A stretch of 50,720 bases of DNA, taken from NCBI RefSeq assembly GCF_030053595.1, contig NZ_JASGBQ010000023.1, positions 1-50,720 on the forward strand, given 5' to 3'. Made by a program: the position numbers and the translations under genes. The DNA is from Fusibacillus kribbianus (GTDB lineage: Bacteria; Bacillota; Clostridia; Lachnospirales; Lachnospiraceae). The notes below the pieces were generated by a model. It did no database searches and was not told where the DNA came from. It saw nothing but the letters and a program-made list of their open reading frames with translations. The stretch's first letter is position 1. Each line of letters starts with the position of its first letter. Of this stretch, positions 898 to 26,487 are shown one piece after another.

Positions 898-1410
898 ATG
901 CGGAAAAGAATATGGAATCCGGTCATCATGTTATGCTTTGGCTTGATGATCGGATTTGTTTCAAGGCTATTGGATATTTATACCACGAATTTGGGGGAAA
1001 TATTCTCTCAAATGGCAATCTGGATTTTAATGGGCACTCTCATTTCCATTTACAGCAGGACAGCCGGGAAAGCGATGCTGAATGTCCTTACCTTCTGCCT
1101 GGGAATGCTGTTTACCTACTACCTGACCGCAGTCCTGAGCCACGGGGTATATTCAGGGAGTTACATGATCGGTTGGACAGTGTTCGCACTGTGTTCGCCT
1201 GTCATGGCTTATTTTGCATGGTTCACAAAAGAAAAAGGAATGTTCCCGAAAATTGTGAGTGTGGGAATCCTTGCGGTTTCAGTCCTGTCATCTGTCCTGT
1301 TTTTTAACAGGCTGCGAATCTATGATCTTGTCATTGACGGAGCTTTGTTTTACGTTCTGTTCTTCAAAAAGATCGACAGACAGGAAGGATTGGATGATTA
1401 TCGTTTTTGA
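898..1410 (+). CDS. Hypothetical multi-pass membrane protein
   Basis: A 170-residue, strongly hydrophobic protein with about five membrane helices, a basic N-terminus and a short charged C-terminal tail ending in LDDYRF. I do not recognise the family. The ribosome binding site is weak (GAAGAAAG). The gene sits tightly between the DUF2975-like gene and the dehydrogenase gene (6-21 bases away depending on its start), so the three may be one transcript. Function cannot be inferred beyond a membrane location. Confidence 0.6.
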   Translation: MRKRIWNPVIMLCFGLMIGFVSRLLDIYTTNLGEIFSQMAIWILMGTLISIYSRTAGKAMLNVLTFCLGMLFTYYLTAVLSHGVYSGSYMIGWTVFALCSPVMAYFAWFTKEKGMFPKIVSVGILAVSVLSSVLFFNRLRIYDLVIDGALFYVLFFKKIDRQEGLDDYRF

Positions 1411-1431
1411 AAAGGGATGAGAAAGCACATG

Positions 1432-2214
1432 AAAAGAAAGCAAGCAGCACTGAGAGTGATCGCAATCGTCGGAGCAAATCGCGGAATTGGTTATTATATG
1501 GTGAAACGTCTGCTCGAACTTGGCGATTCCATTTCGGTTTTGGATATTGAAACGGATAATCTGAAGGAATTGAGAGAACGCTATCCCGATAAATTAATTA
1601 CGATTACAGCGGACGCGGCAAAGGATGAAGATATAAAAAACGGCGTGTCCGAGACAATAAAACAATTCGGGAAAATTGATATCGCGGTACATAATGCTTG
1701 TCTTTGTACTTTTGAAAGCGAGTCACACAGCGATTACGAGCTTTACAACAAGGTAATGGATATCAACTTTTTTGGGGCCTTACGCCTTTCAAAGGCGGTT
1801 TTGCCGGAAATGCGCAAACAGGGTTTTGGAAAAATCATTTTTACCTGCTCAGGTGTTGGTGTTACGGGCTTTGGCAATATTTCTCCTTACGCTTCGTCAA
1901 AGGGAGCAATGGAAGCACTAGCGAAATGTCTTGAAATTGAAAATCAGAAATATGGCATTTCCTTTCATTTGTTTCATCCACCGCTTACAGATACGGCTTC
2001 ATCGGCGAAGCTTCCTGTTCCGAAAGAATTTATGGCAAGCCCTCAGAAAGTCGGGGAAGGGCTTGCCAGACATATTGGATCAAAAAAATTCATTATATGT
2101 CATTCTTTTAGCCAGGCAATGCAAATGAAGCTTTGCTATCGGCATCCTTTGTTTATGGGTAAGATGATGTGGAAAATGACAACACGGGCGGATCAGATGG
2201 ATGAGAATGAATGA
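1432..2214 (+). CDS. Short-chain dehydrogenase/reductase (SDR) family protein
   Basis: This is a classical SDR of about 260 residues with an N-terminal Rossmann fold. The cofactor motif reads VGANRGIG in place of TGxxxGxG. The catalytic Ser lies in TCSGVG and the YxxxK motif is YASSK. The usual NNAG reads HNAC, and the C-terminus is longer and more basic than in simple SDRs. The substrate is unknown. An in-frame ATG at 1417 would abut the AAAGGG, so I prefer the ATG at 1432; the difference is five residues. The gene is more AT-rich than the housekeeping genes further on. Confidence 0.75.
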   Translation, partial: KRKQAALRVIAIVGANRGIGYYMVKRLLELGDSISVLDIETDNLKELRERYPDKLITITADAAKDEDIKNGVSETIKQFGKIDIAVHNACLCTFESESHSDYELYNKVMDINFFGALRLSKAVLPEMRKQGFGKIIFTCSGVGVTGFGNISPYASSKGAMEALAKCLEIENQKYGISFHLFHPPLTDTASSAKLPVPKEFMASPQKVGEGLARHIGSKKFIICHSFSQAMQMKLCYRHPLFMGKMMWKMTTRADQMDENE

Positions 2215-2285
2215 AAACGGGAAAGTTCTTGATCGGAGGGATACCATGGTTTTTGCAGATCATAAAAAATTGTAACAAAAACCTA

Positions 2286-2314
2286 TTGACAAAATAGGCC
2301 ACAGTGAATATAAT
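2286..2314 (+). promoter_or_regulatory. Promoter of the feo locus
   Basis: Perfect -35 TTGACA (2286-2291) and -10 TATAAT (2309-2314) are separated by 17 bases. The palindrome at 2324-2337 begins about 10 bases after the -10, so a bound repressor would block initiation or early elongation. Confidence 0.8.
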
Positions 2315-2323
2315 AATAAACGG

Positions 2324-2337
2324 TTAGCGGTTGCTAA
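2324..2337. promoter_or_regulatory. Candidate DtxR/IdeR-like operator, site 1
   Basis: TTAGCGGTTGCTAA is a near-perfect palindrome, flanked by GG and CC so that the arms extend to GGTTAGC and GCTAACC. It lies at the predicted transcription start of feoA. Related copies are at 2358, 2921 and 5627. The half-site resembles the TTAG...CTAA ends of DtxR/IdeR boxes; the regulator itself is not in the window. Confidence 0.6.
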
Positions 2338-2357
2338 CCTATATTTGAGAAACTGAG

Positions 2358-2371
2358 TTAGCTGAAACTAA
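2358..2371. promoter_or_regulatory. Candidate DtxR/IdeR-like operator, site 2
   Basis: TTAGCTGAAACTAA starts 34 bases after site 1 and 20 bases before the first feoA start codon. The outer TTAG and CTAA are kept. Confidence 0.5.
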
Positions 2372-2390
2372 TGAATAGAAGGAAAATGTG

Positions 2391-2603
2391 ATGATGCCGC
2401 TTACACTTGCAGAAACAGGAGAAGAAAATATCATAAAAAAAATCGGAGGTAAGCAGGAAGTCAAGGTTCACCTGGAGAATCTTGGCTTTGTTGTGGGAGG
2501 AGCCGTTACGGTGATCAATACAATTGGCGGCAACGTCATTGTCAATGTGAAAGAATCCCGCATTGCAGTCAGTAAGGAAATGGCGCAGAAAATTATGATC
2601 TGA
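2391..2603 (+). CDS. feoA: Ferrous iron transport protein A (first copy)
   Basis: A 70-residue SH3-like FeoA-domain protein. The pattern of a short leading strand, a helix ending in LGFVVGG and a VNVKESRIAVSKEMA C-terminus is typical of FeoA. FeoA is a small cytosolic partner thought to modulate the FeoB transporter. GTG at 2388 and ATGs at 2391 and 2394 are all in frame; GAAGGA spacing favours 2391. It is the first gene after the promoter and two candidate iron-box palindromes. A second FeoA-type gene follows 47 bases later, a common clostridial arrangement. Confidence 0.85.
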   Translation: MMPLTLAETGEENIIKKIGGKQEVKVHLENLGFVVGGAVTVINTIGGNVIVNVKESRIAVSKEMAQKIMI

Positions 2604-2650
2604 TTTTCTGGCAGTTTAACTTAGAATACAGTTCAAGGAGGAGAACAGGC

Positions 2651-2872
2651 ATGAGAACACTGAAAGCAGCAAAAGTCGGTGATACGGTCAGGGTCGTAAA
2701 GCTTCATGGCGAAGGCGCGGTCAAACGCCGTATTATGGACATGGGACTGACGAAAGGGGTAGAAGTACACATCCGTAAAGTGGCACCTCTCGGAGATCCG
2801 GTTGAGATTACCGTCCGTGGTTACGAGCTTTCCATTCGCAAAGCAGACGCAGAAATGATCGAAATCGAATAA
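2651..2872 (+). CDS. feoA: Ferrous iron transport protein A (second copy)
   Basis: A 73-residue FeoA-domain protein containing KRRIMDMGLTKG and a closing strand with GDPVEITVRGYELSIRK, the family's best-conserved segments. It is more canonical than the upstream copy and probably is the one that contacts FeoB. A strong AAGGAGGAG precedes the start. The two FeoA proteins differ clearly in sequence, so they are diverged paralogues and not a recent duplication. A weak hairpin and the third palindrome separate it from feoB. Confidence 0.92.
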   Translation: MRTLKAAKVGDTVRVVKLHGEGAVKRRIMDMGLTKGVEVHIRKVAPLGDPVEITVRGYELSIRKADAEMIEIE

Positions 2873-2887
2873 GATAACATGGATTCA

Positions 2888-2910
2888 GGGGAGGTATCCC
2901 CATATTTTTT
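2888..2910 (+). terminator. Weak attenuator-like hairpin before feoB
   Basis: GGGGA and TCCCC form a 5-bp stem around a 4-base loop and are followed by AT and six Ts. It may reduce read-through from feoA into feoB, but the stem is short. Confidence 0.3.
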
Positions 2911-2920
2911 GAGTTAATGG

Positions 2921-2934
2921 TTAGCGGACACTAA
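2921..2934. promoter_or_regulatory. Candidate DtxR/IdeR-like operator, site 3
   Basis: TTAGCGGACACTAA lies 22 bases before the feoB start codon. It shares TTAGCGG exactly with site 1. Its position suggests separate control of feoB or a roadblock. Confidence 0.5.
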
Positions 2935-2956
2935 TCAAGAAAGCGAGGAGTGACAT

Positions 2957-5374
2957 ATGAATTTGCGAATTGCCCTTGCGGGTAACCCAAACAGCGGAAA
3001 GACGACTCTGTTCAATGCACTGACCGGCTCCAACCAGTTCGTCGGAAACTGGCCGGGGGTTACGGTCGAAAAAAAGGAAGGAAAACTGAAAAAGCACAAT
3101 GACGTTGTGATCACGGACCTTCCTGGTATTTATTCTCTTTCCCCTTACACATTGGAGGAAGTGGTAGCAAGAAACTATCTCATTACCGAGCGGCCTGATG
3201 CGATTTTAAACATCATCGACGGTACAAATCTGGAAAGAAACCTGTATCTGACGACGCAGCTTACCGAACTCGGCATTCCTGTTGTTGTTGCGATCAATAT
3301 GATGGATGTGGTGAAGAAGAACGGTGACAGGATCAATACGGAAGAGCTGTCCCATGAACTTGGATGCAAGGTAGTGGAAATTTCCGCTCTGAAGGGAACC
3401 GGAATTATGGAGGCGGCAGAGGCGGCAATTGATGCAGCGAAGAACGGGAAGACTGTCCCGATGCACACCTTCTCGGGCACTGTGGAGCATGCACTTGCGC
3501 ATATTGAGGAAGCGGCAGTACATAATATGCCTGAAGAACAGCAGCGCTGGTATGCGGTAAAAATTTTTGAACGCGATGACAAGGTACTGGAACAGATTCA
3601 GCTTGATCAGGCGGTTCTGGATCACATAGAAGCCGATATTAAGGCTGTGGAGGATGAATTGGACGACGATGCGGAATCCATCATTACCAATGAGCGCTAT
3701 GTTTATATCGGTCAGATCATCAAGGGCTGTTACAGGAAGAGATCGGCAGGGAGGCTTTCCACCTCCGATAAGATCGATAAGGTCGTTACCAACCGTTTTG
3801 CAGCGCTCCCGATATTTGCAGCTGTGATGTTCCTTGTTTATTATATTGCGGTCTCCACCGTCGGCACATTTGCGACTGACTGGGCCAATGACGGCGTGTT
3901 TGGCGACGGCTGGCATCTGTTCGGCATCGGAACATCCGCATATGAAGACGCTGTGACGGATTATGCGGCAGAAAACGTCTGGACCGACGAGATGATTTCT
4001 GCTGTGGACGCTGCAGCCGGGATGGGTGTCATCGGTGCCGAAGAGATTCAGTCTGCCATTGCCGATGAGGACTTCGGTGCATTTGATGGAGCTTACGGCT
4101 CCTATGCGGATGCTCTGGCAGAGGGAGGATATGATATTTCCGAAATCTATGAAGCGGCTCTCGGAGAGGAGGCGGAAGGTGTTCCTGATCCGTCTGAATA
4201 CGGCGTATGGGTGCCTGGTATTCCCGTACTTGTGGAAAAAGGTCTTGAAGCGGCAAACTGCCCTGAATGGCTGAACGGTTTGATCCTTGACGGTATTATC
4301 GGAGGCGTGGGTGCCGTTCTCGGCTTTGTACCGCAGATGCTTGTCCTTTTTATTCTGCTGGCCTTCCTGGAATCCTGCGGATACATGGCTCGAATTGCTT
4401 TTGTCCTTGACCGTATTTTCCGCAAATTCGGCCTTTCCGGCAAGTCCTTCATTCCGATGCTGATCGGCACCGGCTGCGGCGTACCCGGAATTATGGCATC
4501 CCGTACCATTGAGAATGAACGTGACCGCCGCATGACGATCATGACCACGACCTTTATCCCCTGCGGTGCAAAGCTCCCGATCATCGCACTTATTGCTTCC
4601 GCCCTGTTCGGCGGCGCATGGTGGGTGGCCCCCAGTGCTTATTTCATCGGCATCGCTGCTATCATTATTTCCGGCATTATGCTGAAGAAAACGAAAATGT
4701 TTGCCGGCGATCCTGCTCCCTTCGTAATGGAATTACCCGCATACCACTGGCCGACTGTCGGCAATGTGCTGCGCTCCATGTGGGAACGGGCATGGTCGTT
4801 CATTAAGAAGGCAGGAACGATCATCCTCCTTTCGTCTATCGTCATCTGGGCCGGCTCCTGTTTCGGGACTATGGATGGTGCGTTTACCTTCAGCACGGAA
4901 ATGGAGCTTGAAAACAGCGTGCTCGGTATGATCGGCAGCGCTCTTTGCTGGATCTTCTCACCACTCGGCTTCGGCAACATCAAGGCTACCGTTGCAACCG
5001 TCATGGGCCTTGTGGCAAAGGAAGAAGTTGTCGGCGTGTTCGGTGTCCTTGATTTTGAGGGAATGACCCGCCTTGCCGCGTATTCCTTCCTGGTGTTCAA
5101 TCTGCTCTGCGCCCCCTGCTTTGCGGCAATCGGTGCCATCAAGCGTGAAATGAACTCTGCAAAGTGGACCTGGTTCGCCATCGGCTATCAGTGTGTGTTT
5201 GCTTATGCAATCTCCCTGATGATCTATCAGTTCGGTTCGATCTTTACCGGAGATCTGAATGTGATCGGTCTGATTGCAGCAATTGCCGTTCTCGCAGGGA
5301 TGATGTATATGCTGTTCATTAAGCGCTATTCCGAAGCGAAAAAACTGACAAAAAGAGTTAAGGTAACAAAATAA
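2957..5374 (+). CDS. feoB: Ferrous iron transporter FeoB
   Basis: An 805-residue Fe(II) transporter with an N-terminal G-protein domain: G1 GNPNSGKTT (9-17), G3 DLPG (54-57) and G4 NMMD (114-117). A helical linker follows, then a C-terminal polytopic membrane domain with the Gate signatures ESCGYMAR and IGTGCGVPG, and FIPCGAKLPI. Between the first membrane helix and the next conserved block there is an acidic, Ala/Gly/Asp-rich stretch of about 100 residues (roughly 312-418), longer than in E. coli-type FeoB and predicted to lie outside the membrane. GAGGAGTGACAT precedes the ATG. It is in one direction with both feoA genes and the downstream small Cys-rich protein. Confidence 0.97.
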   Translation: MNLRIALAGNPNSGKTTLFNALTGSNQFVGNWPGVTVEKKEGKLKKHNDVVITDLPGIYSLSPYTLEEVVARNYLITERPDAILNIIDGTNLERNLYLTTQLTELGIPVVVAINMMDVVKKNGDRINTEELSHELGCKVVEISALKGTGIMEAAEAAIDAAKNGKTVPMHTFSGTVEHALAHIEEAAVHNMPEEQQRWYAVKIFERDDKVLEQIQLDQAVLDHIEADIKAVEDELDDDAESIITNERYVYIGQIIKGCYRKRSAGRLSTSDKIDKVVTNRFAALPIFAAVMFLVYYIAVSTVGTFATDWANDGVFGDGWHLFGIGTSAYEDAVTDYAAENVWTDEMISAVDAAAGMGVIGAEEIQSAIADEDFGAFDGAYGSYADALAEGGYDISEIYEAALGEEAEGVPDPSEYGVWVPGIPVLVEKGLEAANCPEWLNGLILDGIIGGVGAVLGFVPQMLVLFILLAFLESCGYMARIAFVLDRIFRKFGLSGKSFIPMLIGTGCGVPGIMASRTIENERDRRMTIMTTTFIPCGAKLPIIALIASALFGGAWWVAPSAYFIGIAAIIISGIMLKKTKMFAGDPAPFVMELPAYHWPTVGNVLRSMWERAWSFIKKAGTIILLSSIVIWAGSCFGTMDGAFTFSTEMELENSVLGMIGSALCWIFSPLGFGNIKATVATVMGLVAKEEVVGVFGVLDFEGMTRLAAYSFLVFNLLCAPCFAAIGAIKREMNSAKWTWFAIGYQCVFAYAISLMIYQFGSIFTGDLNVIGLIAAIAVLAGMMYMLFIKRYSEAKKLTKRVKVTK

Positions 5375-5399
5375 AAAATTGTGAAGGGGAGGTAAGAAT

Positions 5400-5573
5400 A
5401 TGCTTGCCTGGCTTTTAGAAAATATGGCAACCGTTATCATCTGTGCTGTTTTGATCGCTGTTGTTGCGGCAATTATTGTAAGCATGGTGAAAAACAGGAA
5501 AAAAGGAAAATCCTCCTGTGGATGCGGGTGTGCAGGCTGTTCAGGAAACAGTTCCTGCCATCCTGAAAAATAA
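5400..5573 (+). CDS. FeoB-associated Cys-rich small membrane protein
   Basis: A 57-residue protein with one membrane helix (about 10-30), a basic KNRKKGK stop-transfer segment and a C-terminus with six cysteines (CGCGCAGC, then one more before HPEK). This matches the FeoB-associated Cys-rich membrane protein family found after feoB in Firmicutes; a role in iron handling or FeoB assembly is inferred. GGGGAGG lies 7-8 bases before the ATG and the gene starts 25 bases after feoB. A terminator follows immediately. Confidence 0.88.
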   Translation: MLAWLLENMATVIICAVLIAVVAAIIVSMVKNRKKGKSSCGCGCAGCSGNSSCHPEK

Positions 5574-5581
5574 CGCTTACG

Positions 5582-5617
5582 GGAGACGCAGGATACAGTC
5601 TGCGTCTCCTGGTTTTT
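5582..5617 (+). terminator. Terminator of the feo operon
   Basis: A 10-bp perfect stem (GGAGACGCAG / CTGCGTCTCC) with an 8-base loop, followed by TGG and five Ts. It closes the feoA-feoA-feoB-Cys-rich gene unit. Confidence 0.75.
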
Positions 5618-5626
5618 ACATGGAGA

Positions 5627-5640
5627 TTAGTGATTGCTAA
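5627..5640. promoter_or_regulatory. Candidate DtxR/IdeR-like operator, site 4
   Basis: TTAGTGATTGCTAA lies 22 bases before the DUF2325 gene and after the feo terminator. It places the downstream gene in the same putative regulon. Confidence 0.5.
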
Positions 5641-5661
5641 CTGTATAAAAGGAGATACGGA

Positions 5662-5949
5662 ATGAGTGTTGTTATTGTGGGTGGAAATGAATGTATGGTC
5701 CGTCAATATAAAACTCTGTGCAGTGAGTATCGATGTAAAGCAAAGGTATATCCGAAAATGTCAGGTGGCTTAAAAAACATTGGAACACCTGATCTTCTGG
5801 TACTGTTTACCGATACTGTTTCTCACAAGATGATACAATGTGCGTTGAGTGAAACAAAGGGACGAAATGTACGGATTGCCCGTTCTCACACAAGCTCTAT
5901 AAGTGCATTAAAAAATATTTTAGAAAAACACACTGCAGGTTGTGAATAG
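5662..5949 (+). CDS. DUF2325 domain protein
   Basis: A 95-residue protein beginning with the VVIVGGNECM motif, followed by alternating strands and helices (DLLVLFTDTVSH, IARSHTSSISALKNIL). This is the DUF2325 pattern, a small Rossmann-like domain of unknown function. Such genes often sit near feo loci in Clostridia, and here a copy of the putative iron-box palindrome precedes it, which supports a metal-related role by context only. AAAGGAG lies 6-7 bases before the ATG. Confidence 0.8.
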   Translation: MSVVIVGGNECMVRQYKTLCSEYRCKAKVYPKMSGGLKNIGTPDLLVLFTDTVSHKMIQCALSETKGRNVRIARSHTSSISALKNILEKHTAGCE

Positions 5950-5963
5950 GAAGAGAGGTACAT

Positions 5964-6297
5964 ATGTCAGAATAATCGCGCATTAATATATGCTTATCGT
6001 CCCGTCCGGCTTTTTCAGGATTTGCAGAACAACACTGCCTGCAGGCTGCTCGCAGAACGAGGATATGAAGTGGGAACACCGGAAGATGTCTGCGGATTTA
6101 TCGAAAATAAAGCAGAAGGCTGTAAGTGTATCGGATGCTGGAAGATTTACGGAGATACAGATGCGGCGCAGAAAGTTTTTGCAAAATATAAAAAGTGTAC
6201 GGATATTTATTGCACGGTGTTTGCGAAGGGAAGGTCTGTTGAACGGCTTTGCTGCTGTATTATGCCCAGTGACCGGCATTGTATCGCGGGGCAATGA
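5964..6297 (+). pseudogene. Cys-rich small protein with a start-proximal frameshift
   Basis: AGAGAGG and an ATG at 5964 begin a gene that stops after three codons (ATG TCA GAA TAA). One base out of frame, an uninterrupted reading frame runs to 6297 and reads NNRALIYAYRPVRLF and onward. It ends with a cysteine-rich part containing CKCIGC, CTDIYC and LCCC. The simplest reading is a 1-base insertion just after the start codon of a gene of about 110 codons. A TTG at 6022 could also start a shorter 91-residue product. I do not recognise the family. It follows the DUF2325 gene by 14 bases. Confidence 0.45.
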
Positions 6298-19594: not shown

Positions 19595-19920
19595 TTACAG
19601 TAAAAATCCCCCCTGCACTGCAGGGGGGGAGGGAAACTCTTCAGATTGAAGAACTCTTGTGCTAGAATAAATGTGGGTCTGCAAAACCACAAATAAAAGA
19701 GCACAGGAGATCCAATATGGACAATAACAGTTTAGCTCATACCAAATGGGAATGTAAGTACCATATTGTAGTTGCCTCTAAATATCGTCGGCAAGTGATA
19801 TCGGGCAGTTGTGGATGTGGTGCAGCTGGCAGGCCCTCAGTGCGCCTTCCGGGCGCAAGCAGGCAACAGCCCCTTATAGGAGCAGAACAAGCCACCGGTT
19901 AAGCTGGTGGTCTTGACTAT
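19595..19920 (+). mobile_element. Internally deleted IS200/IS605-family element
   Basis: A left-end hairpin (CCCCCCTGC / GCAGGGGGG, 19608-19628) is followed by a leader with a TGTGG/CCACA stem and an ATG at 19717. The start reads MDNNSLAHTKWECKYHIV, the N-terminus of IS200-type TnpA Y1 transposases. After about 27 codons the similarity stops. Unrelated GC-rich sequence then leads to a right-end hairpin (CCACC...GGTGG, 19892-19910). The catalytic HUH and Tyr region is missing, so the copy cannot transpose alone. Exact ends are inferred; TTAC at 19595 may be the target tetranucleotide. Confidence 0.75.
19717..19902 (+). pseudogene. tnpA: Truncated IS200-type transposase TnpA
   Basis: The first 27 codons or so match the TnpA start (KWECKYHIVVASKYRRQVI). 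The remaining 33 codons (GCGAAGRPSVRLPG and onward) do not resemble TnpA and arise from the deletion junction and right end. Normal length is about 130-155 residues. No active product is expected. Confidence 0.7.
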
Positions 19921-20023
19921 GATGGATAAAAGAAAACGATTTGTTTGTTATAAGAATTAATGGTGGGAGAAAAACCAAAAAAAGTAATTATTATAAAGAA
20001 TAATCGGAGACATGAAAAACTTC

Positions 20024-20052
20024 TTGTAAATATTATGCAGATATGATATATT
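20024..20052 (+). promoter_or_regulatory. Promoter of the BlaI/M56 module
   Basis: TTGTAA and TATATT are separated by 17 bases. The dyad at 20057-20074 follows at the expected start point. The 19921-20023 gap upstream is AT-rich with no gene. Confidence 0.55.
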
Positions 20053-20056
20053 TTAA

Positions 20057-20074
20057 TTATAATTCAAATTATAA
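20057..20074. promoter_or_regulatory. Candidate operator of the BlaI-like repressor
   Basis: TTATAATT-CA-AATTATAA is a perfect dyad with 8-bp arms. It sits at the predicted transcription start and 18 bases before the repressor's start codon, where a BlaI-type autorepressor would bind. Confidence 0.55.
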
Positions 20075-20092
20075 ATGGAGATGAGAAATATA

Positions 20093-20485
20093 ATGAAGAT
20101 GCAGGAACTGCCGCCGACAGAATTAACGGTCATGAAAGCGATCTGGGATGCGGGAAAGCCGGTACATTTATCTGAAATCCACGTAATGCTGGAACGCTAT
20201 GGGAAGGACTGGCAGTATCAAACGGTTTCTACCTATATACGGAGCTTGGTAAGACGGGGATTTTTGATTATGGAACAGGTAAAGGGAACCCGCGGTAAAG
20301 TATACCTGTATACACCGGCGATTAGCCAGGAAGAATACCTGGAATATACAATGGGGAAAATGGCACGCTTTTGGGGAAAGCACTCCCTGAAACCCATATT
20401 GTGTGCTTTACGGGAAAATGAAGAACTGACTGAGGAAGATATACAGGAACTACAGGGGTATCTACATGATTGCAATAATCGTTGA
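20093..20485 (+). CDS. BlaI/MecI/CopY family transcriptional repressor
   Basis: A 130-residue winged-helix protein, the usual BlaI size. The motifs are LPPTELTVMKAIWDAGKPV at the first helix, YQTVSTYIRSLVRRGFL at the recognition helix and wing, then a C-terminal dimer region. In the family, cleavage by the partner M56 protease relieves repression. The partner gene overlaps by 20 bases. ATGs at 20075 and 20081 are too close to the GGAG; 20093 is preferred with a long spacing of 12. A dyad (20057-20074) lies just upstream as a likely autoregulatory site. Confidence 0.88.
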   Translation: MKMQELPPTELTVMKAIWDAGKPVHLSEIHVMLERYGKDWQYQTVSTYIRSLVRRGFLIMEQVKGTRGKVYLYTPAISQEEYLEYTMGKMARFWGKHSLKPILCALRENEELTEEDIQELQGYLHDCNNR

Positions 20486-21839
20486 ATGGTTTTTCTGGCT
20501 TGTACTGACTTCTTTAACAGGAAGTTTGGCTTATGGTTTGTGGAAAATAGCAGAGTCTATTTTGAAAAGAAAAAAGAAATATAGCTGGCTTTTTATATCA
20601 ACACAGCTCGTTATTATTTTTTTTGCTTTTCCGATTATTTTTTTGAGCATTTATTTAAAAACGATAGATTGGAAAGGAGGAGCAATACTTGATGTCTTTT
20701 CTATTTCTCCTTTACTGTATGAAATACTATGCGTTTTATTCTGGATTTGGCTGGTTGGCTTTTTGATTGAAATGTGTCTTTATATAATTGAAAGACATGG
20801 AATGCGTAAAATCAAAAAGTATAATTTGTGTGTCCCTTATGATATTCGGACGTTATGCGATGAAATCCGGGTGGAAAATAAAATTCGGATTCAAGTTGAG
20901 GTTTTTTATAATCTGCACTGTAAAATACCGTCGGTGAGTGGAGTTTTCAGGCCAGTCATTATGTTGCCCGCAGAAGCGTTGGAAGGAGAAGCACTTAAGG
21001 TGATCCTGACCCATGAGCTGACTCATATTAAACATCACGATTTGTGGTGGAAATACGTCACTGCCTGGATCAGAAGGATCCATTGGTTCAATCCGGTGAT
21101 TTCTGTGCTGATTAGAGATGTGTTTGAATGGAAAGAAACGCAATGTGATCTTGATGTATGCAGTTCTAGAAAAATAAGTTTTGAGCAATATTTCACGATT
21201 GTTATTGCAAATGCAGGAAACAAAAAGCAGCGTTCCTATTTATTTGCAATGACTCTAAGCGAAAGCAAAAACAGTATAAAAAGGAGGATGGAAAAGATGA
21301 ACGGATATCGACGAGATAAGGAATGGAAACAATGGAGTGTTGTAGCACTATCTATATTGTTTGTGTGTATGATTTCTTTGACTTCCTATGCGGCTGGTGA
21401 AGGAATTTTGTATGGGTATCATGCACTGGTTGATGCTACAGAAGTTCTGGAGACAGAAGAATTGATTCCGATAGAAGAACTGGAGGAAGAGATTATTCCT
21501 GCAGGAACAAATTCCGGTGTGATTGAGATTGAACTGGAAGACGTCATGACATATTCGTCTGGTACAATTGATATGAGTATTCCGGTGAATGCGCTGATAA
21601 AAACATCATCCTTTTCTTGTGGTGTTGATGATGTGATTAATGTTACCGTTGGTGTGACACCTAATAATGTACCGACGAGAGTTGGTATTATAGAGCCGGA
21701 CGGGATACGACGGGCAGTTACTTCTACCGGGATGATCATACATAATTTTTCTGTGAGAAAAGGTGGATTTCATCAGGTCTACGTTGAGAATTTATCGGGA
21801 GCTACAATTGCAGTGAGCGGTACATATCTTGTATATTGA
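20466..21839 (+). CDS. M56 family (BlaR1-like) membrane metalloprotease with novel sensor domain
   Basis: A 457-residue protein. Three N-terminal membrane helices (about 5-30, 41-64 and 84-108) precede a cytosolic zinc protease domain with HELTH at 183-187 and the downstream E224 in WKETQCD. A fourth helix (about 291-308) ends at SLTSYAA. The C-terminal 150 residues are predicted outside the cell, acidic at first and then beta-rich (FSVRKGGFHQVYVENLSG). They do not contain the SxxK/KTG penicillin-binding fold of BlaR1, so the ligand is unknown. By analogy, ligand binding activates cleavage of the BlaI-like repressor encoded upstream. Confidence 0.87.
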   Translation: MIAIIVEWFFWLVLTSLTGSLAYGLWKIAESILKRKKKYSWLFISTQLVIIFFAFPIIFLSIYLKTIDWKGGAILDVFSISPLLYEILCVLFWIWLVGFLIEMCLYIIERHGMRKIKKYNLCVPYDIRTLCDEIRVENKIRIQVEVFYNLHCKIPSVSGVFRPVIMLPAEALEGEALKVILTHELTHIKHHDLWWKYVTAWIRRIHWFNPVISVLIRDVFEWKETQCDLDVCSSRKISFEQYFTIVIANAGNKKQRSYLFAMTLSESKNSIKRRMEKMNGYRRDKEWKQWSVVALSILFVCMISLTSYAAGEGILYGYHALVDATEVLETEELIPIEELEEEIIPAGTNSGVIEIELEDVMTYSSGTIDMSIPVNALIKTSSFSCGVDDVINVTVGVTPNNVPTRVGIIEPDGIRRAVTSTGMIIHNFSVRKGGFHQVYVENLSGATIAVSGTYLVY

Positions 21840-21868
21840 TTTAAATGGGGGTAATCCCCATTTAAATC
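21838..21868. promoter_or_regulatory. 13-bp perfect hairpin over the M56 stop codon
   Basis: GATTTAAATGGGG and CCCCATTTAAATC pair perfectly around GTAAT. There is no T run, so it is not a standard terminator. It may protect or process the message between the sensor pair and the effector genes. Confidence 0.5.
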
Positions 21869-21909
21869 AGGAATTAATTATTAATAATGCAGTTATAAAT
21901 TAATAAAAT

Positions 21910-22269
21910 GTGATTATTATTCAGATGAATAATAAAATATGCCTGAATGCGAGCTTAGGGGATTCTGTAAGTGTTCAAAAAGTGAACGATGGGGACCCGT
22001 ATGGATATGTAACATCGGTAAAAAATGCAGATGGGTATGTGAGTAATACTATTGAAAACCATGGGGTTTCTTATGCGAGGATCTATAATAGAGACAATGC
22101 AAACAACAAGACTGATCCGTATTTTACATTTACAGATTATGAGCAGCGTAGAAGTGATACATACAATGGCGGAGCGTCATATGGGGGATACTATTATGTA
22201 AAGGCTGAGATTGCAGAATGTGATTTCACTGGAGCTGCGATGTATATGTGTTTCCGCTGGATTCCGTAA
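21910..22269 (+). CDS. Small beta-rich protein of unknown family
   Basis: The frame opens at a GTG and encodes up to 119 residues, rich in Tyr, Asn, Asp and Gly: SVSVQKVNDGDPYGYVTS in the first third, YNRDNANNKTDPYFTF in the middle and AAMYMCFRWIP at the end. Composition suggests a secreted beta-sandwich protein, yet no signal peptide and no good ribosome binding site are present. It may be the 3' part of a gene that lost its export signal. Its place between the sensor protease and the lipoprotein suggests it belongs to the module. I do not recognise the family. Confidence 0.5.
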   Translation: MIIIQMNNKICLNASLGDSVSVQKVNDGDPYGYVTSVKNADGYVSNTIENHGVSYARIYNRDNANNKTDPYFTFTDYEQRRSDTYNGGASYGGYYYVKAEIAECDFTGAAMYMCFRWIP

Positions 22270-22348
22270 TTATTATTTGCATAAAACATAGTAAATGATA
22301 AACCGAAGAAGACAAGCTCGCAGCTTCATTGGTTTGAGGAGGAAAACA

Positions 22349-23479
22349 ATGATCACAGGTCTAAAGAAAAAAATGTTAACAGCTCTGGCGATAGTCATTG
22401 TCCTGGCTTTCTGTGGCTGCGGAAAGAAGGAGACAGACGCAGGGGAGAATGGACAGATCGGAGAAAAGTTTGAGACTGGGAAAGAAGAGGTAACAGACAT
22501 AAAAAATGGCGATCTCATTTCTCGTGAAATCACAGGGAGGGTAAAACTGGAGGCTGTGGTGAAATTGCCGGAAGAAGGAATTGCAAATGTTGAAGAATGC
22601 CAGGTGCAGCAGGTGAAATTTGACGGAGAATCCATGCGTACCACCGTATTTCCGGAGCTTGCTTTGGAAGGCTGGATATATGACGAGCAATACGACAGTC
22701 ATTATTGGAGAAGCAAAGAAAACAAAGATAATGCTGTGATCGGCAGTATAATCTCTTATAATAAAGAGCGTTGGTATGAAAATCGATTTTGCCTTCCCAT
22801 GAGGGAAATAAACGGAACTTATGTGGTCAAAGACGATGAATATACGGAGGAACTTTTCTTTTCATCCAGAGAAGAAATCGCAGAAACTGCAAAGACCTGG
22901 CTGAAGGAGCGGGTGGGTATTACAGAAGTGGGCATAGAACGGATCTATTCAATTACCCATCAGGAAATGAAAAAAACAGAGGAACAGCAATATGTGGAAA
23001 ACGGCACTGCGGGCGTCGGAAAGCCAGGAGAGAGCTTTGAATTAAAGACAACCTGGAGTGAAGCAGATGACTTTTATATGATTTTTCTAACGCGGGTGAT
23101 CAATGGCCTTCCGCTTCTCACAGGAGATTATGTGAGACAGGATGAAGTTTATTTGCCAAATGGAAGGATTACCCTGTGCTATGCAGAAGAGGGACCGATC
23201 AATATAGATATTCCCTGGGATTATAAAATATTGGGGAGAAAGACAGCAAAGTTATGTCCGATGGAAATGGTTTATGAGTCTCTTCAGAGGAAGTTTGAAA
23301 GGACAATCACCGCAGATGTTTTGATTGATGAGATGCAGTTGATCTACTTTCCCTATCCGGTCGACATCGAGGAACGGGTCTATGATTTGATTCCTGCCTG
23401 GAAGTTTTCGTTTTCTGATTATGGTATGGAAAAATTCGTTTATATCAATGCCATAGATGGGATAGAGATCATAGAGTGA
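22349..23479 (+). CDS. Large lipoprotein of the BlaI/M56-ABC module
   Basis: A 376-residue protein with a lipoprotein signal: basic start, hydrophobic core and FCGC at the cleavage site (Cys about 26). The mature part is acidic with several Trp/Tyr-rich blocks (VFPELALEGWIYDEQYDSHY, then IYFPYPVDIEERVYDLIPAW). It should be anchored on the outer face of the membrane. TGAGGAGG lies 6 bases before the ATG. Eleven bases separate it from the first permease, so it is probably an ABC-associated or ligand-sensing component. It resembles uncharacterised clostridial lipoproteins found beside such modules; a family name is not certain. Confidence 0.75.
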   Translation: MITGLKKKMLTALAIVIVLAFCGCGKKETDAGENGQIGEKFETGKEEVTDIKNGDLISREITGRVKLEAVVKLPEEGIANVEECQVQQVKFDGESMRTTVFPELALEGWIYDEQYDSHYWRSKENKDNAVIGSIISYNKERWYENRFCLPMREINGTYVVKDDEYTEELFFSSREEIAETAKTWLKERVGITEVGIERIYSITHQEMKKTEEQQYVENGTAGVGKPGESFELKTTWSEADDFYMIFLTRVINGLPLLTGDYVRQDEVYLPNGRITLCYAEEGPINIDIPWDYKILGRKTAKLCPMEMVYESLQRKFERTITADVLIDEMQLIYFPYPVDIEERVYDLIPAWKFSFSDYGMEKFVYINAIDGIEIIE

Positions 23480-23490
23480 GGGGATGAGTT

Positions 23491-24294
23491 ATGGGATTTT
23501 TTCGTATGCTGAGTTCCGATATAAAACGTTTGTTTCTCTCTAAACGTTTTTATATGACGATTGTGCTGGTGATCGTCCTGTATTTGTTGACGGTCTGTAC
23601 AGAATTGGGAATGGCACGGGAATTATTTTACATGATAGATGTTCGGCATGGGCTGGGGGCCTTTTTGCTTGCAATGACCATATTGTCTCCGATACCGTAT
23701 GGATTAAGTTATCAGGAAGATATTTCACACAATTACGCTTATGGGATAGAAATTAGGGTGAGTCATAGGAAATATTGCTGGGCAAAGGTGATCGCGACAG
23801 CAGTGGGAACCTTTCTGAGCGTGTTCTGCGGCTATATGATTATCTGTGGGATATTGAGTTTCTTTCATCCGCTTATATCGGATATTGCCATAGGAAATAT
23901 GCAGGTGAATTATCAGGCGGGGGTGTTGGATCCGTATCAGAAATATTTCATATGGGGACATCCTGTTTTTTATTTTGTAAGCACGTTTGCAACAGAAGCG
24001 GCAGCATATTCTTTCATGGCCGTGTTTACATTGATGGTTTCCACTAAAGTACGAAATGTCTTTATTCTACTATCAGTACCAGCCGTGCTTTATTATGGAA
24101 ATATTGTGCTTTGTGATATCCTGAAACTTCCTGCCATTTTTCGATGGAATAATACCATGAAATTAGGATTACGGGTATTTTCGTCCGATCCCGTCATAGT
24201 GCTTTTGGAAACTATTGTATACTTTGCAATCCTTATTTTTCTGGCGGGACTGGTTTTTAACTGGCTGACAGAAAGGCGGCGTTTTCATGGATAA
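23491..24294 (+). CDS. ABC transporter permease subunit 1
   Basis: A 267-residue integral membrane protein with about six helices, beginning with a cytosolic amphipathic start (RMLSSDIKRLFLSKRFYMT) as in ABC-2-type export permeases. An N-terminal hydrophobic pair, a loop with DISHNYAYGIEIRVSHRKY and four later helices are seen. It overlaps the second permease by 8 bases, so the two probably form a heterodimeric channel with the ATPase encoded downstream. The substrate is unknown; bacitracin- or lantibiotic-immunity-type exporters share this design. Confidence 0.8.
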   Translation: MGFFRMLSSDIKRLFLSKRFYMTIVLVIVLYLLTVCTELGMARELFYMIDVRHGLGAFLLAMTILSPIPYGLSYQEDISHNYAYGIEIRVSHRKYCWAKVIATAVGTFLSVFCGYMIICGILSFFHPLISDIAIGNMQVNYQAGVLDPYQKYFIWGHPVFYFVSTFATEAAAYSFMAVFTLMVSTKVRNVFILLSVPAVLYYGNIVLCDILKLPAIFRWNNTMKLGLRVFSSDPVIVLLETIVYFAILIFLAGLVFNWLTERRRFHG

Positions 24295-25141
24295 AATATA
24301 TAAAAGTCTTCGTATCTGTGGAATCCACTTGAGGAAAATGCTTGGAAATCCACGGTTTTATATTGCATTTCTGTGGTTTGTGTTTCTTATATACTTCTAT
24401 GTGTCAAAAGTAAAATCGTTTTCCATAGAGACAGGGATTAAAGTATCCCCATGGCTTTTCCCGCTTTTGCTGAATCAGGCCGGAAACCAACTTTTTGTGA
24501 TCATAGGTGCCCTTTTGCTGTTCTGTGATGCTCCTTTCATCAATGAGACCACCGCCTGGCAGATGATGAGGGCAGGCAAGAGAAGCTGGTTTTGGGGGAG
24601 TATGCTGTATATCTCCGTGCTGTCATTGATTTATTCAGTAGGGCTTTCGGTGATTCCAAATCTTATGCTATTTCCACGTGTTACATGGATGGAGGACTGG
24701 GGGCAGATTTTAGGTGCCCTGGCGCAGTCCAGCGCCGCTTCGCAGCTTGGAATCATAAATCTGGATTATGGTCTTATGGTGCGCTTTATGCCCTGGCAGG
24801 CTATGTGTTTGAAGATACTGGCAGTATGGTTGAATACCGTGTTGATCGGAGAATTGTGCTATGTGTTTAATGTATGGCTGAGGTGGGGGAGTGGTCCTCT
24901 TGCAGGAATGATGATGGGGCTGACTCCGTACCTGATTTTGCGGCTTCCGAATTTCAGAGTTGGTTATTATCTGGCACCTCCGGCATGGATGAACCTCAGC
25001 ATGTACAGTTGGAATGGGTATGGAACATTTCCTTCTCCTGCCTATATTTATACGACATTTGCAGTTTTGATTCTGGGATGTGTGATATTTTCTTATATTG
25101 GTATTAAGAAAAAGGACGTAATACCAACGGAAGATCTGTAA
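24287..25141 (+). CDS. ABC transporter permease subunit 2
   Basis: A 284-residue polytopic membrane protein with about six helices. It has the same cytosolic start type (KSLRICGIHLRKMLGNPRFY) as subunit 1 and a loop NETTAWQMMRAGKRSWFWGS that corresponds to the GIEIRVSHRKY loop of its partner, which suggests ancient duplication. A C-terminal helix ends in a KKKD tail. It is translationally coupled to subunit 1 and lies 21 bases before the ATPase gene. Confidence 0.8.
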   Translation: MDKIYKSLRICGIHLRKMLGNPRFYIAFLWFVFLIYFYVSKVKSFSIETGIKVSPWLFPLLLNQAGNQLFVIIGALLLFCDAPFINETTAWQMMRAGKRSWFWGSMLYISVLSLIYSVGLSVIPNLMLFPRVTWMEDWGQILGALAQSSAASQLGIINLDYGLMVRFMPWQAMCLKILAVWLNTVLIGELCYVFNVWLRWGSGPLAGMMMGLTPYLILRLPNFRVGYYLAPPAWMNLSMYSWNGYGTFPSPAYIYTTFAVLILGCVIFSYIGIKKKDVIPTEDL

Positions 25142-25162
25142 AAGAATGAAATGGAGGAAACG

Positions 25163-25807
25163 ATGTCATATAAAATAGAAGTGTGTCATGTGACAAAAAA
25201 ATTCAAAGAATACAAGGCGCTGGATGATGTATCCCTGCAGTTTGAGGAAGGAAAAATCCATGGGATCATCGGGCGAAATGGCAGCGGGAAAACGGTTTTG
25301 TTCAAATGTATCTGCGGTTTGATAAAGGTGGATAAAGGTGACATTCTTGTGGATGGAAAAAGGATCGGAAAAGAACTAGAATTCCCGACGGATACGAGAG
25401 TCATCATTGAAAATCCGGGATTTTTGCCTGGATACAGCGGATATCAGAACCTGAAATTTTTAGCAGACATTCAAAATAAAATTAAAAAAAAAGATATCGA
25501 GGCAGTGATGGAGCGGGTAGGTCTGGATCCGAAGAGCAAAAAGCATGTGGGAAAATATTCTCTTGGAATGAGACAGCGCCTTGGGATTGCCCAAGTGATC
25601 ATGGAAGAACCGTCTTTGCTCATTATGGATGAACCGATGAATGGCCTGGATAATCAGGGGGTCAGAGAAATGCGTGACTTGTTTTTACAATTGAAAGAGC
25701 AGGGAAAGACAATCCTGTTGGCAAGTCACAACCGAGAAGATATTTCTGTGCTTTGCGACACTGTTGTGGAAATCGATCATGGAAGAATTGTAAAAGGGAA
25801 TATATGA
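25163..25807 (+). CDS. ABC transporter ATP-binding protein, BcrA-like
   Basis: A 214-residue ATPase subunit: Walker A GRNGSGKT (37-44), signature YSLGMRQRLGIAQ (132-144), Walker B LLIMDEP (152-158) and switch His189. The Q-loop position holds Glu (IIENPGFLPGYSG), the variant seen in BcrA and lantibiotic-immunity (LanF-type) exporters. It is short, with no C-terminal extension after the core. TGGAGG lies 5 bases before the ATG at 25163. It completes an export system with the two permeases upstream. Confidence 0.93.
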   Translation: MSYKIEVCHVTKKFKEYKALDDVSLQFEEGKIHGIIGRNGSGKTVLFKCICGLIKVDKGDILVDGKRIGKELEFPTDTRVIIENPGFLPGYSGYQNLKFLADIQNKIKKKDIEAVMERVGLDPKSKKHVGKYSLGMRQRLGIAQVIMEEPSLLIMDEPMNGLDNQGVREMRDLFLQLKEQGKTILLASHNREDISVLCDTVVEIDHGRIVKGNI

Positions 25808-25926
25808 GTTTCTCGGACTTCGTATGAAAAAAGTAAAATAAAATTTTCTGCCGGGATAGCAAAAACTATCGCTTCCATGTTATAATGAACGCAGATAAAA
25901 ATCCGGCGGAAGAGGAGTGGATAGGT

Positions 25927-26487
25927 ATGGAAGAGAATTATGGCGGTCAGAATCAGTATGATCAGCAGTATGGCCAGCAGCAGTACGGTGAGCAGAATCA
26001 GTATAGCCAGCAGGGGCAGTACGGTCAGCAGCATCAGTATGGTCAGCAGGGGCAATATGGTTGGCAGCAGTACGGCGAGCAGAATCAATATGGCCAGCAG
26101 GGGCAGTATGGTTGGCAGCAGTACGGTGAGCAGAATCAATATGGCCAGCAGGGGCAGTATGGTCAGCAGTATGGGTGGCAGAATTCCTATAGAAATGAGC
26201 AGTGTGACATGACTCCGGCCAGACAGGCAGTGAAGGATTGCGTGAATTCTCCGCTTTATGTAGTGATGGCAGCACTTTATACGGCATCGCTGGTCTTTTC
26301 TGTGATTCAGGTTTTTAGAGGTAACAGTGCAGTTACAGGTACTATAAATGGGGTGGGTTCCACTCATTTTACTATTGTGCTCAGTCTCCTGGCAATGATT
26401 CCGGCAATCCTGATCGGCATCGGTCTGTGGATGTTCTACAGTGGCTGCAGGGAAAGGGAGCGCCAAAGGCATCGGGACTTTCTCTGA
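25927..26487 (+). CDS. Gln/Tyr/Gly repeat membrane protein, N-terminal part before a frameshift
   Basis: The first 83 or so residues are a low-complexity QYGQQ-type region with two nearly identical 17-residue units (44-60 and 61-77). A membrane domain starts with MTPARQAVKDCVNSPL, and two helices follow. The frame then slips into a basic tail (RERERQRHRDFL) and stops at 26487. The likely continuation is in the other frame from about 26445. GAGGAG lies 8 bases before the ATG at 25927. Function unknown; this design (disordered N-terminus, multi-helix C-terminus) is common in Lachnospiraceae. Confidence 0.7.
   Translation: MEENYGGQNQYDQQYGQQQYGEQNQYSQQGQYGQQHQYGQQGQYGWQQYGEQNQYGQQGQYGWQQYGEQNQYGQQGQYGQQYGWQNSYRNEQCDMTPARQAVKDCVNSPLYVVMAALYTASLVFSVIQVFRGNSAVTGTINGVGSTHFTIVLSLLAMIPAILIGIGLWMFYSGCRERERQRHRDFL

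Follow-up and report, generated by a model that had tools for sequence, protein, structure and literature searches.

What does a BlaI-type repressor paired with an M56 membrane protease control when the sensor domain of the protease is not a penicillin-binding one and no beta-lactamase gene accompanies the pair? The question is raised by positions 20075-25807 of a 50,720-nt stretch of Fusibacillus kribbianus DNA (NZ_JASGBQ010000023.1; Lachnospiraceae), which is contig C16 of a 2.9-Mb genome and is referred to below, at its full length, as the window. Here the genes for BlaI and M56 are followed by an open frame of 119 codons and by genes for a lipoprotein, two permeases, and an ATPase of the ATP-binding cassette (ABC) type, on the + strand throughout. 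Our preferred answer, on which we are evenly divided, is that these genes were acquired as an immunity module directed at a Sec-secreted, bacteriocin-like beta-rich protein, that the module is run by a BlaR1-like switch, and that its secreted partner has been lost here. The gene content and gene order of the module recur in other genomes, the gene of the secreted protein is truncated, and a penicillin-binding protein (PBP) sensor is absent by sequence. The genes named in an earlier sequence-only reading (a BlaI repressor, PF03965; an M56 protease, PF05569, with HELTH at residues 183-187; a 376-residue lipoprotein; two permeases; an ATPase) were all found where that reading had placed them (Table 1).

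The repressor gene overlaps the M56 gene, and the protease carries an HExxH site, as in the BlaI-BlaR1 and MecI-MecR1 systems. Proteases of the BlaR1 type are chiefly known for sensing beta-lactams. When a profile of 21 M56 relatives was compared with the solved BlaR1 (8exp, E 3e-24), the match covered positions 87-301 and went no further, and the NCBIfam model blaR1_generic covers residues 89-303 (86.6 bits versus a cut-off of 400), so that the similarity to BlaR1 stops at 301-303, before the ectodomain. The latter, unlike the penicillin-binding sensor of BlaR1 with its SxxK and KTG motifs, is an unnamed, separate beta-rich domain of ~145 residues, which follows the fourth helix and an acidic linker, is conserved in relatives, and has the core pattern VGIxxPDGxxRxV. 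None of the 29 aligned ectodomains matched a PBP model by sequence, a scan of nine proteins from the module and its surroundings gave no match to a beta-lactamase or PBP model, and the module's own genes include neither a beta-lactamase nor a PBP2a gene, all of which agrees with what had been claimed. The Pfam domain GOLD was found in 5 of the 29 ectodomains (best E 5.6e-4, a weak match) and PPC in one (E up to 0.1), neither of them in the window copy; the comparison with PDB chains gave no significant match. The domain had also been called a new sensor domain. It is indeed unnamed and not penicillin-binding by sequence, but it is not peculiar to this locus: six full-length copies occur in this genome, at least one in each of the 11 genomes of the genus (with fragments counted, the genus total is 44 M56 matches), and at least 16 of 150 family genomes, the genome under study included, have matches that extend to position 445 or past it, so that the domain is frequent in the genus and present in other genera.

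The fourth helix may itself resemble a signal peptide, being preceded by 4-9 K/R residues in all 21 aligned rows. Stand-alone, secreted-looking proteins with the same beta domain are encoded beside BlaI-M56 at three loci (L058:3018-3509, L059:10947-11489, and L060:10432-10842). Because of the signal-peptide-like helix and these single-domain copies, the ectodomain may be derived from a secreted protein by fusion. At three other loci (L093:8372-8647, L116:3814-4059, and L126:12203-12490), a small secreted-looking protein directly follows a short M56 (379-390 residues) without the beta ectodomain; these small proteins have a common Q-R-W-T-W-WID-like pattern and are perhaps the sensor part acting in trans.

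The downstream genes resemble an immunity system of another kind, namely the LanFEG pumps with their LanI lipoproteins (NisFEG/NisI, SpaFEG/SpaI). The module's ATPase has Glu at the Q-loop position, as do 37 of 42 ATPase relatives (Asp in one, four not read), and we take this residue to be the E-loop of LanF. According to PMC4239024, LanFEG pumps consist of one ATPase and two dissimilar permeases and mostly guard producers from their own bacteriocin, and LanI proteins, among which there is little or no homology, are often their partners. The module has the same surface lipoprotein, two dissimilar permeases, and small ATPase with Glu at the Q-loop, and the best named model for the ATPase is TIGR03740 (lantibiotic protection), whose cut-off of 309.75 bits is not reached (177.6 bits). 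It differs in that no Lan model matches the permeases or the lipoprotein, genes for lantibiotic synthesis are not found among its genes, and the regulator is BlaI/M56. Neither the lipoprotein, nor the two permeases, nor the small frame reached any Pfam or NCBIfam cut-off. DUF6034 was detected in 1 of 14 lipoprotein rows (E 9.3e-6) and in the copy from Niallia below the cut-off (23 versus 27 bits), though not in the window copy; no mention of DUF6034 was found in the literature searched. The exporter had previously been described as BcrA-like. The Glu Q-loop ATPase stands, and the BcrAB(C) bacitracin exporter shares the ABC export plan with one small ATPase; however, Bcr has one permease and an ATPase of 280-320 residues (PMC4239024), whereas two dissimilar permeases in the window, and two permeases in many relatives, with an ATPase of 218 residues here, make the transporter LanFEG-like rather than BcrAB-like.

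Table 1. Features of the module and its upstream flank (positions in the window).
Feature	Position	Strand	Details
IS200/IS605-type remnant: one end with transposase 5' stub, and other end	19640..19919	.	repeated in genome; just upstream of module
Perfect AT-rich dyad before blaI; operator a guess only	20057..20074	.	29/300 shuffles reach it
BlaI/MecI-type repressor, 136 residues	20075..20485	+	PF03965, 76.1 bits (cut-off 22.6)
M56 membrane zinc protease, 457 residues, BlaR1-like in residues 86-303	20466..21839	+	PF05569, 88.6 bits (cut-off 31)
HELTH zinc site, residues 183-187	21012..21026	+	H183, E184, H187 invariant in 21-row alignment
Fourth hydrophobic helix, signal-peptide-like	21336..21386	+	K/R-rich before, 17 hydrophobic residues, AxA-like end
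Extracellular beta-rich domain of M56, residues 313-457	21402..21836	+	alignment A7, 29 members; no PBP model matched
Strong stem-loop directly after M56	21836..21870	+	-20.1 kcal/mol, z -3.96, 0/200 shuffles as stable
5'-truncated remnant of small secreted family (SMALL)	21910..22269	+	37% identity over 110 aligned positions to intact L078 copy
Lipoprotein, 376 residues, perhaps distant kin of DUF6034	22349..23479	+	ATG at 22349; Cys24 nearly invariant in 14-row alignment
ABC permease 1, 267 residues	23491..24294	+	no family match; recurs between lipoprotein and permease 2
ABC permease 2, 284 residues	24287..25141	+	34-51% identity in genus loci
ABC ATPase, 218 residues, Glu at Q-loop position	25151..25807	+	PF00005, 110.7 bits

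Relatives of the lipoprotein were found in 8 of the 11 genus genomes, at 14 loci including the window. The permease 2 profile matched 85 of 397 family genomes, the weak tail of these matches probably being generic permeases. Forty stretches were fetched, representing nearly all permease 2 places down to E 6e-29 (G269:C29 and G130:C13:35585 were left out), 38 of them outside the genus. Together with a human-gut scaffold deposited as phage (L129) and the Niallia taxi megaplasmid NZ_CP102590 (L130; Bacillaceae), both carrying the block of lipoprotein and ABC genes, they make up the 40 outside loci considered below; the 15 genus loci exclude the window and were obtained via the lipoprotein (13) or permease 2 (2; L090 and L108). 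The order of lipoprotein, permease 1, permease 2, and ATPase is seen in many locus maps, the lipoprotein coming last in L086 and L118. The maps drop genes whose longest frame overlaps a neighbour, a rule that was not applied in the neighbour tallies; with tblastn, the ATPase was picked up again in L075, L080, L082, and L086, as was permease 1 in L052, L079, and L082. A lipoprotein search of the genome contigs gave three further loci, which were rejected; the matches there were short, in two cases lying at the N-terminal signal, and none contained BlaI, M56, or a permease of the module by tblastn. No description of such a module was found in the literature covered, from which most subscription journals and bioRxiv preprints fell out.

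The regulators of the block are more variable than the block itself. Within 4 kb of the block, the lipoprotein is present in 32 of the 40 outside loci, while BlaI is found in 7, M56 in 7, and both in 5; both occur in 6 of the 15 genus loci. The pair precedes the block in the window and in L052, L082, L085, and L086, and follows it in L076 and L078. The chance of meeting an M56 gene in a 12-kb stretch is 1.8% (44 M56 matches in 29.9 Mb), which gives P 8e-8 for 6 of 14 loci with BlaI-M56 and a value of the same order, about 1e-7, for 6 of 15; these values are not strict, since the loci are related. In a tree of 28 M56 proteins, some details of which are unsure owing to long branches, 8 changes of the module label are required, no fewer than 4 of them on well-supported forks, and the label is spread over several branches, which we read as repeated association or exchange. 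Of the two outcomes that the earlier reading had named as refuting it, neither came up within the tests made here: no penicillin-binding match was obtained by sequence, and co-occurrence of BlaI/M56 with the lipoprotein and ABC genes extends over 6/15 genus and 5/40 outside loci, two orders, and several M56 branches. It is absent from 9/15 and 35/40 loci, respectively. Histidine kinases or LytTR-type regulators, which are common in bacteriocin loci, accompany the block in 16/40 outside and 2/15 genus loci; their profiles were made from only two loci, so that these counts are probably too low. At two loci (L083:8860-11016 and L084:9747-11775), an AgrC-like kinase and a LytTR-type regulator (identified by eye) take the place of BlaI-M56 next to the same block, which is a regulator swap.

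The 119-codon frame between the protease and the lipoprotein had been taken for a small beta-rich protein. Instead, it is a 5'-truncated relic of a secreted protein whose family is called SMALL here: the frame starts with GTG, has no visible ribosome-binding site, no signal peptide, and no first strand, and the SMALL profile can be extended 5' of it only across two TAA stops. We read it as what appears to be a decayed gene. Intact relatives have 123-154 residues from the chosen start and a signal-peptide-like beginning (judged by a hydrophobicity rule, not SignalP), and most rows have a YVT-like motif and a W/Y-x-P-like end. SMALL was detected beside the block in 6 of the 15 other genus loci and 13 of the 40 outside loci (19/55), of which 17 trained the profile; the remaining two, L118 (29 bits) and the Niallia copy (55 bits), were matched without having been used in building it. 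An earlier, narrower profile had matched 5 of 397 family genomes, two of them (G024 and G210) beside the block. L083 carries a C-terminal remnant of SMALL. Two weak matches, to DUF6520 for L081 (21.0 versus 25.4 bits) and to OMP_b-brl for L094 (20.0 versus 28.7 bits), were set aside, being not common to other members. Two more small proteins, those of L041 and L048, are possibly remote relatives of SMALL; that of L041 matches the SMALL profile with E 0.0027 (hhalign probability 23%).

Under the immunity reading, BlaI would repress the locus, and the beta domain of M56 would detect, outside the cell, either the protein that neighbours or kin secrete or the damage it does to the wall. The cytoplasmic zinc protease of M56 would then inactivate BlaI, presumably by cleavage; at the cell surface, the attacker would be caught by the lipoprotein and expelled by the ABC transporter with its two permeases, as lantibiotics are by LanI and LanFEG. 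Since the SMALL gene has lost its start and signal peptide, the window cell would be immune without producing. This reading is backed by the occurrence of the block in other genera, on the megaplasmid, and on the phage-deposited gut scaffold; by SMALL beside the block, the pairing of BlaI-M56 with the block above chance, and the alternative kinase and LytTR regulators; and by a related genomic site that lacks the module, described below, which is counted for acquisition.

Precedents by analogy are offered by the LanI/LanFEG plan and by loci of the lactococcin 972 family (lcn972, streptococcin B, mediterrocin), in which a small Sec-secreted protein is encoded beside immunity/ABC genes. Immunity-only loci exist: scbBC without the bacteriocin gene scbA was reported in 157 of 571 pneumococcal genomes, the function of B and C being not experimentally verified (PMC11796350). 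Mediterrocin is a Sec-secreted Lachnospiraceae bacteriocin of 89 residues, whose cluster has an ABC gene and a DUF1430 protein; it was confirmed by gene disruption, and a synthetic copy was less active (PMC12345188). The module differs from these loci in its extra lipoprotein and two permeases, and because the SMALL profile is not similar to theirs, the likeness is one of plan, not of membership; the identity of SMALL with lactococcin 972 was rejected on the profile comparison. PF09683 and TIGR01653 matched none of the SMALL members scanned (some with Pfam only), the 115-residue protein of L041 alone giving TIGR01653 with E 0.057 (13.7 versus 32.1 bits), and no protein of the window matched DUF1430. 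TIGR01653 matched 14 of 397 family genomes, 2 of them over the cut-off and none of them the genome under study; PF09683 matched 0 of 199 phylum genomes, a scan that is uninformative, as no control matched either. An identical 114-residue lactococcin-972-like protein is encoded in three genera (L139:1465-1809, L140:1465-1809, and L141:1498-1842) and is, judging by length and distribution, probably mediterrocin.

Several observations weigh against the immunity reading. BlaI/M56 is missing from 9 of the 15 genus loci; BlaI and M56 are not both near the block in 35 of the 40 outside loci, M56 being absent in 33, and 17 of the 40 have none of the regulators sought within 4 kb. On the M56 tree, the module label shows no clustering (138 of 500 shuffles were as low), so that the link between BlaI-M56 and the block is not stably inherited. 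Between M56 and the genes downstream stands a strong stem-loop, and for this reason those genes may not share a transcript or regulator with M56. The stem-loop may serve to terminate the regulator transcript or to tune the genes that follow. Stem-loops of different sequence occupy the same place in L041, L042, L052, and L082 (z -3.2 to -4.1; 0, 2, 0, and 1 of 200 shuffles as stable), that is, with the window, in five of six BlaI-M56 loci examined; in L086 there is no room for one. The AT-rich dyad before blaI was set aside as a BlaI operator, since it is not significant. LanE and LanG models matched neither the two window permeases nor 13 permease 2 rows; SMALL reached no Pfam cut-off in 18 members scanned and no NCBIfam cut-off in 16, and its comparison with the lactococcin 972 profile gave an hhalign probability of 10% over 8 columns. 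To our knowledge, no activity is known for any SMALL member.

The alternative that survives best, which we regard as rather unlikely, is general envelope-stress response or antimicrobial-peptide detoxification: the M56 domain would sense wall damage or foreign peptides of host or microbial origin, the pump would clear diverse peptides, and SMALL would be a cell-surface helper. LanFEG-type pumps without a bacteriocin gene can indeed be broad in specificity, e.g., CprABC (PMC4239024). No recognised secreted gene was found in 27/40 outside and 9/15 genus loci, numbers to be read with the contig end being near in 7/40 and 7/15 of them and with divergent SMALL copies that can escape detection; and the beta domain is weakly similar to chains of the lysozyme inhibitor PliG (E about 0.1, not significant, a hint only). 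Against this, a fast-diverging secreted protein beside a lipoprotein and varied regulators looks like the turnover of bacteriocins and their immunity and not like a stress response of the housekeeping kind. Of the surface-stress or peptide-sensing immunity proposed in the sequence-only reading, peptide-sensing immunity fits, but self-immunity to a bacteriocin-like protein is a better guess than general surface stress, because the small open frame is the remnant of a protein that is intact in relatives.

An exporter or signalling cassette, in which SMALL would be the ligand of M56 (a self-produced signal or a matrix protein) and the ABC transporter and lipoprotein would move, mature, or anchor SMALL, appears improbable. 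The secreted-looking beta-domain proteins beside BlaI-M56 in L058-L060 and the small secreted-looking proteins after the short M56 in L093, L116, and L126 would suit it; however, SMALL, with its ordinary signal-peptide-like starts, should not depend on an exporter of its own, M56 is missing near the block in the 9/15 genus and 33/40 outside loci counted above, and the profiles of SMALL and the M56 ectodomain are not similar (hhalign probability 0.7%), for which reason kinship between the two was also rejected.

That BlaI-M56 and the block are neighbours through chance or shared mobility with no functional link, the stem-loop ending the regulator transcript, is very unlikely. In its favour, the six BlaI-M56 beta pairs of this genome have quite different neighbours, the stem-loop recurs after M56 as described, the site beside the aldo/keto reductase gene is variable, and the module label is unclustered on the M56 tree; against it, adjacency is seen in 6/15 genus loci and two orders versus about 1.8% expected, and in five loci of other genera as well.

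A broader version of the immunity reading is tentative, and we incline to doubt it. BlaI-M56 pairs with the beta ectodomain would make up a large receptor class whose ligands are secreted bacterial proteins instead of beta-lactams, many copies being wired to a secreted protein/lipoprotein/ABC cassette of their own and the sensor domain sometimes being a separate secreted protein; SMALL (about 120-155 residues, with the YVT-like motif and, in most members, W/Y-x-P at the end) would represent a bacteriocin family not yet described, and the window would hold an eavesdropping, immunity-only copy. If so, M56 proteases would have a new signalling role in this bacterial family, that of reading the secreted proteins of competitors, which would explain why one genome holds six BlaI-M56 pairs. 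It would also provide a handle on an unnamed secreted protein family, the function of which would be directly testable because the family comes with a ready-made immunity partner.

As to how the module reached this site, both the AT-richness and the upstream IS200 remnant reported earlier were confirmed. The guanine-cytosine (GC) content across 20001-26000 is 37.5-43.6%, versus 47.5-55% over the preceding 3 kb and 49-50.5% over the following 3 kb, with values of ~43% also found elsewhere in the window (1001-3000 and 5001-6000). Both ends of the remnant are repeated in the genome: contig C23 has a stretch with 82% identity to 19640-19800, and 19803-19919 recurs at six other places with 90-91% identity; the transposase stub matches PF01797 below the cut-off (21.4 versus 23 bits). 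In one related genome (G095, locus L133), an aldo/keto reductase gene 88% identical to that of the window is followed by kin of the window genes at 25885 and 26427, the homology picking up again ~100 bases further along, so that the module and the remnant are absent there. In G156 (L080), the same reductase (91%) is present, and the lipoprotein block lies 5.3 kb further, past unrelated genes. No kin of 25885 or 26427 was found within the fetched stretches of L131 and L132, and L134 stops at a contig end next to the reductase. This fits the gain of the module at a variable site beside the aldo/keto reductase gene, the direction being not proven. A phage or viral origin was set aside, as scans of viral contigs with M56 and with the ATPase gave no relative, and a defence-system reading was likewise dropped, PADLOC having returned only generic ATPase matches and weak BlaI matches. 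Just downstream of the module, 25885-26487 encodes a probable membrane protein with a QYGQQ-rich, low-complexity N-terminal part.

Other BlaI-M56 pairs stand in various contexts. Two nearly identical M56 copies of this genome (L041 on contig C48 and L042 on contig C3) are followed by quite different downstream cassettes, one consisting of a 115-residue secreted-looking protein, a lipoprotein, an ATPase, and an 810-residue permease, and the other having a 235-residue secreted-looking protein. A further pair on contig C1 (L043:6656-8393) adjoins a sigma-factor-like gene (by eye) and, on the opposite strand, a DUF4179 gene (42 bits). On pCbo51 of Enterocloster bolteae (L088; NZ_CP053230.1), typed as a mobilizable plasmid, BlaI-M56 is followed by three exported-looking proteins, one of which resembles the 235-residue protein of L042 in length and plan.

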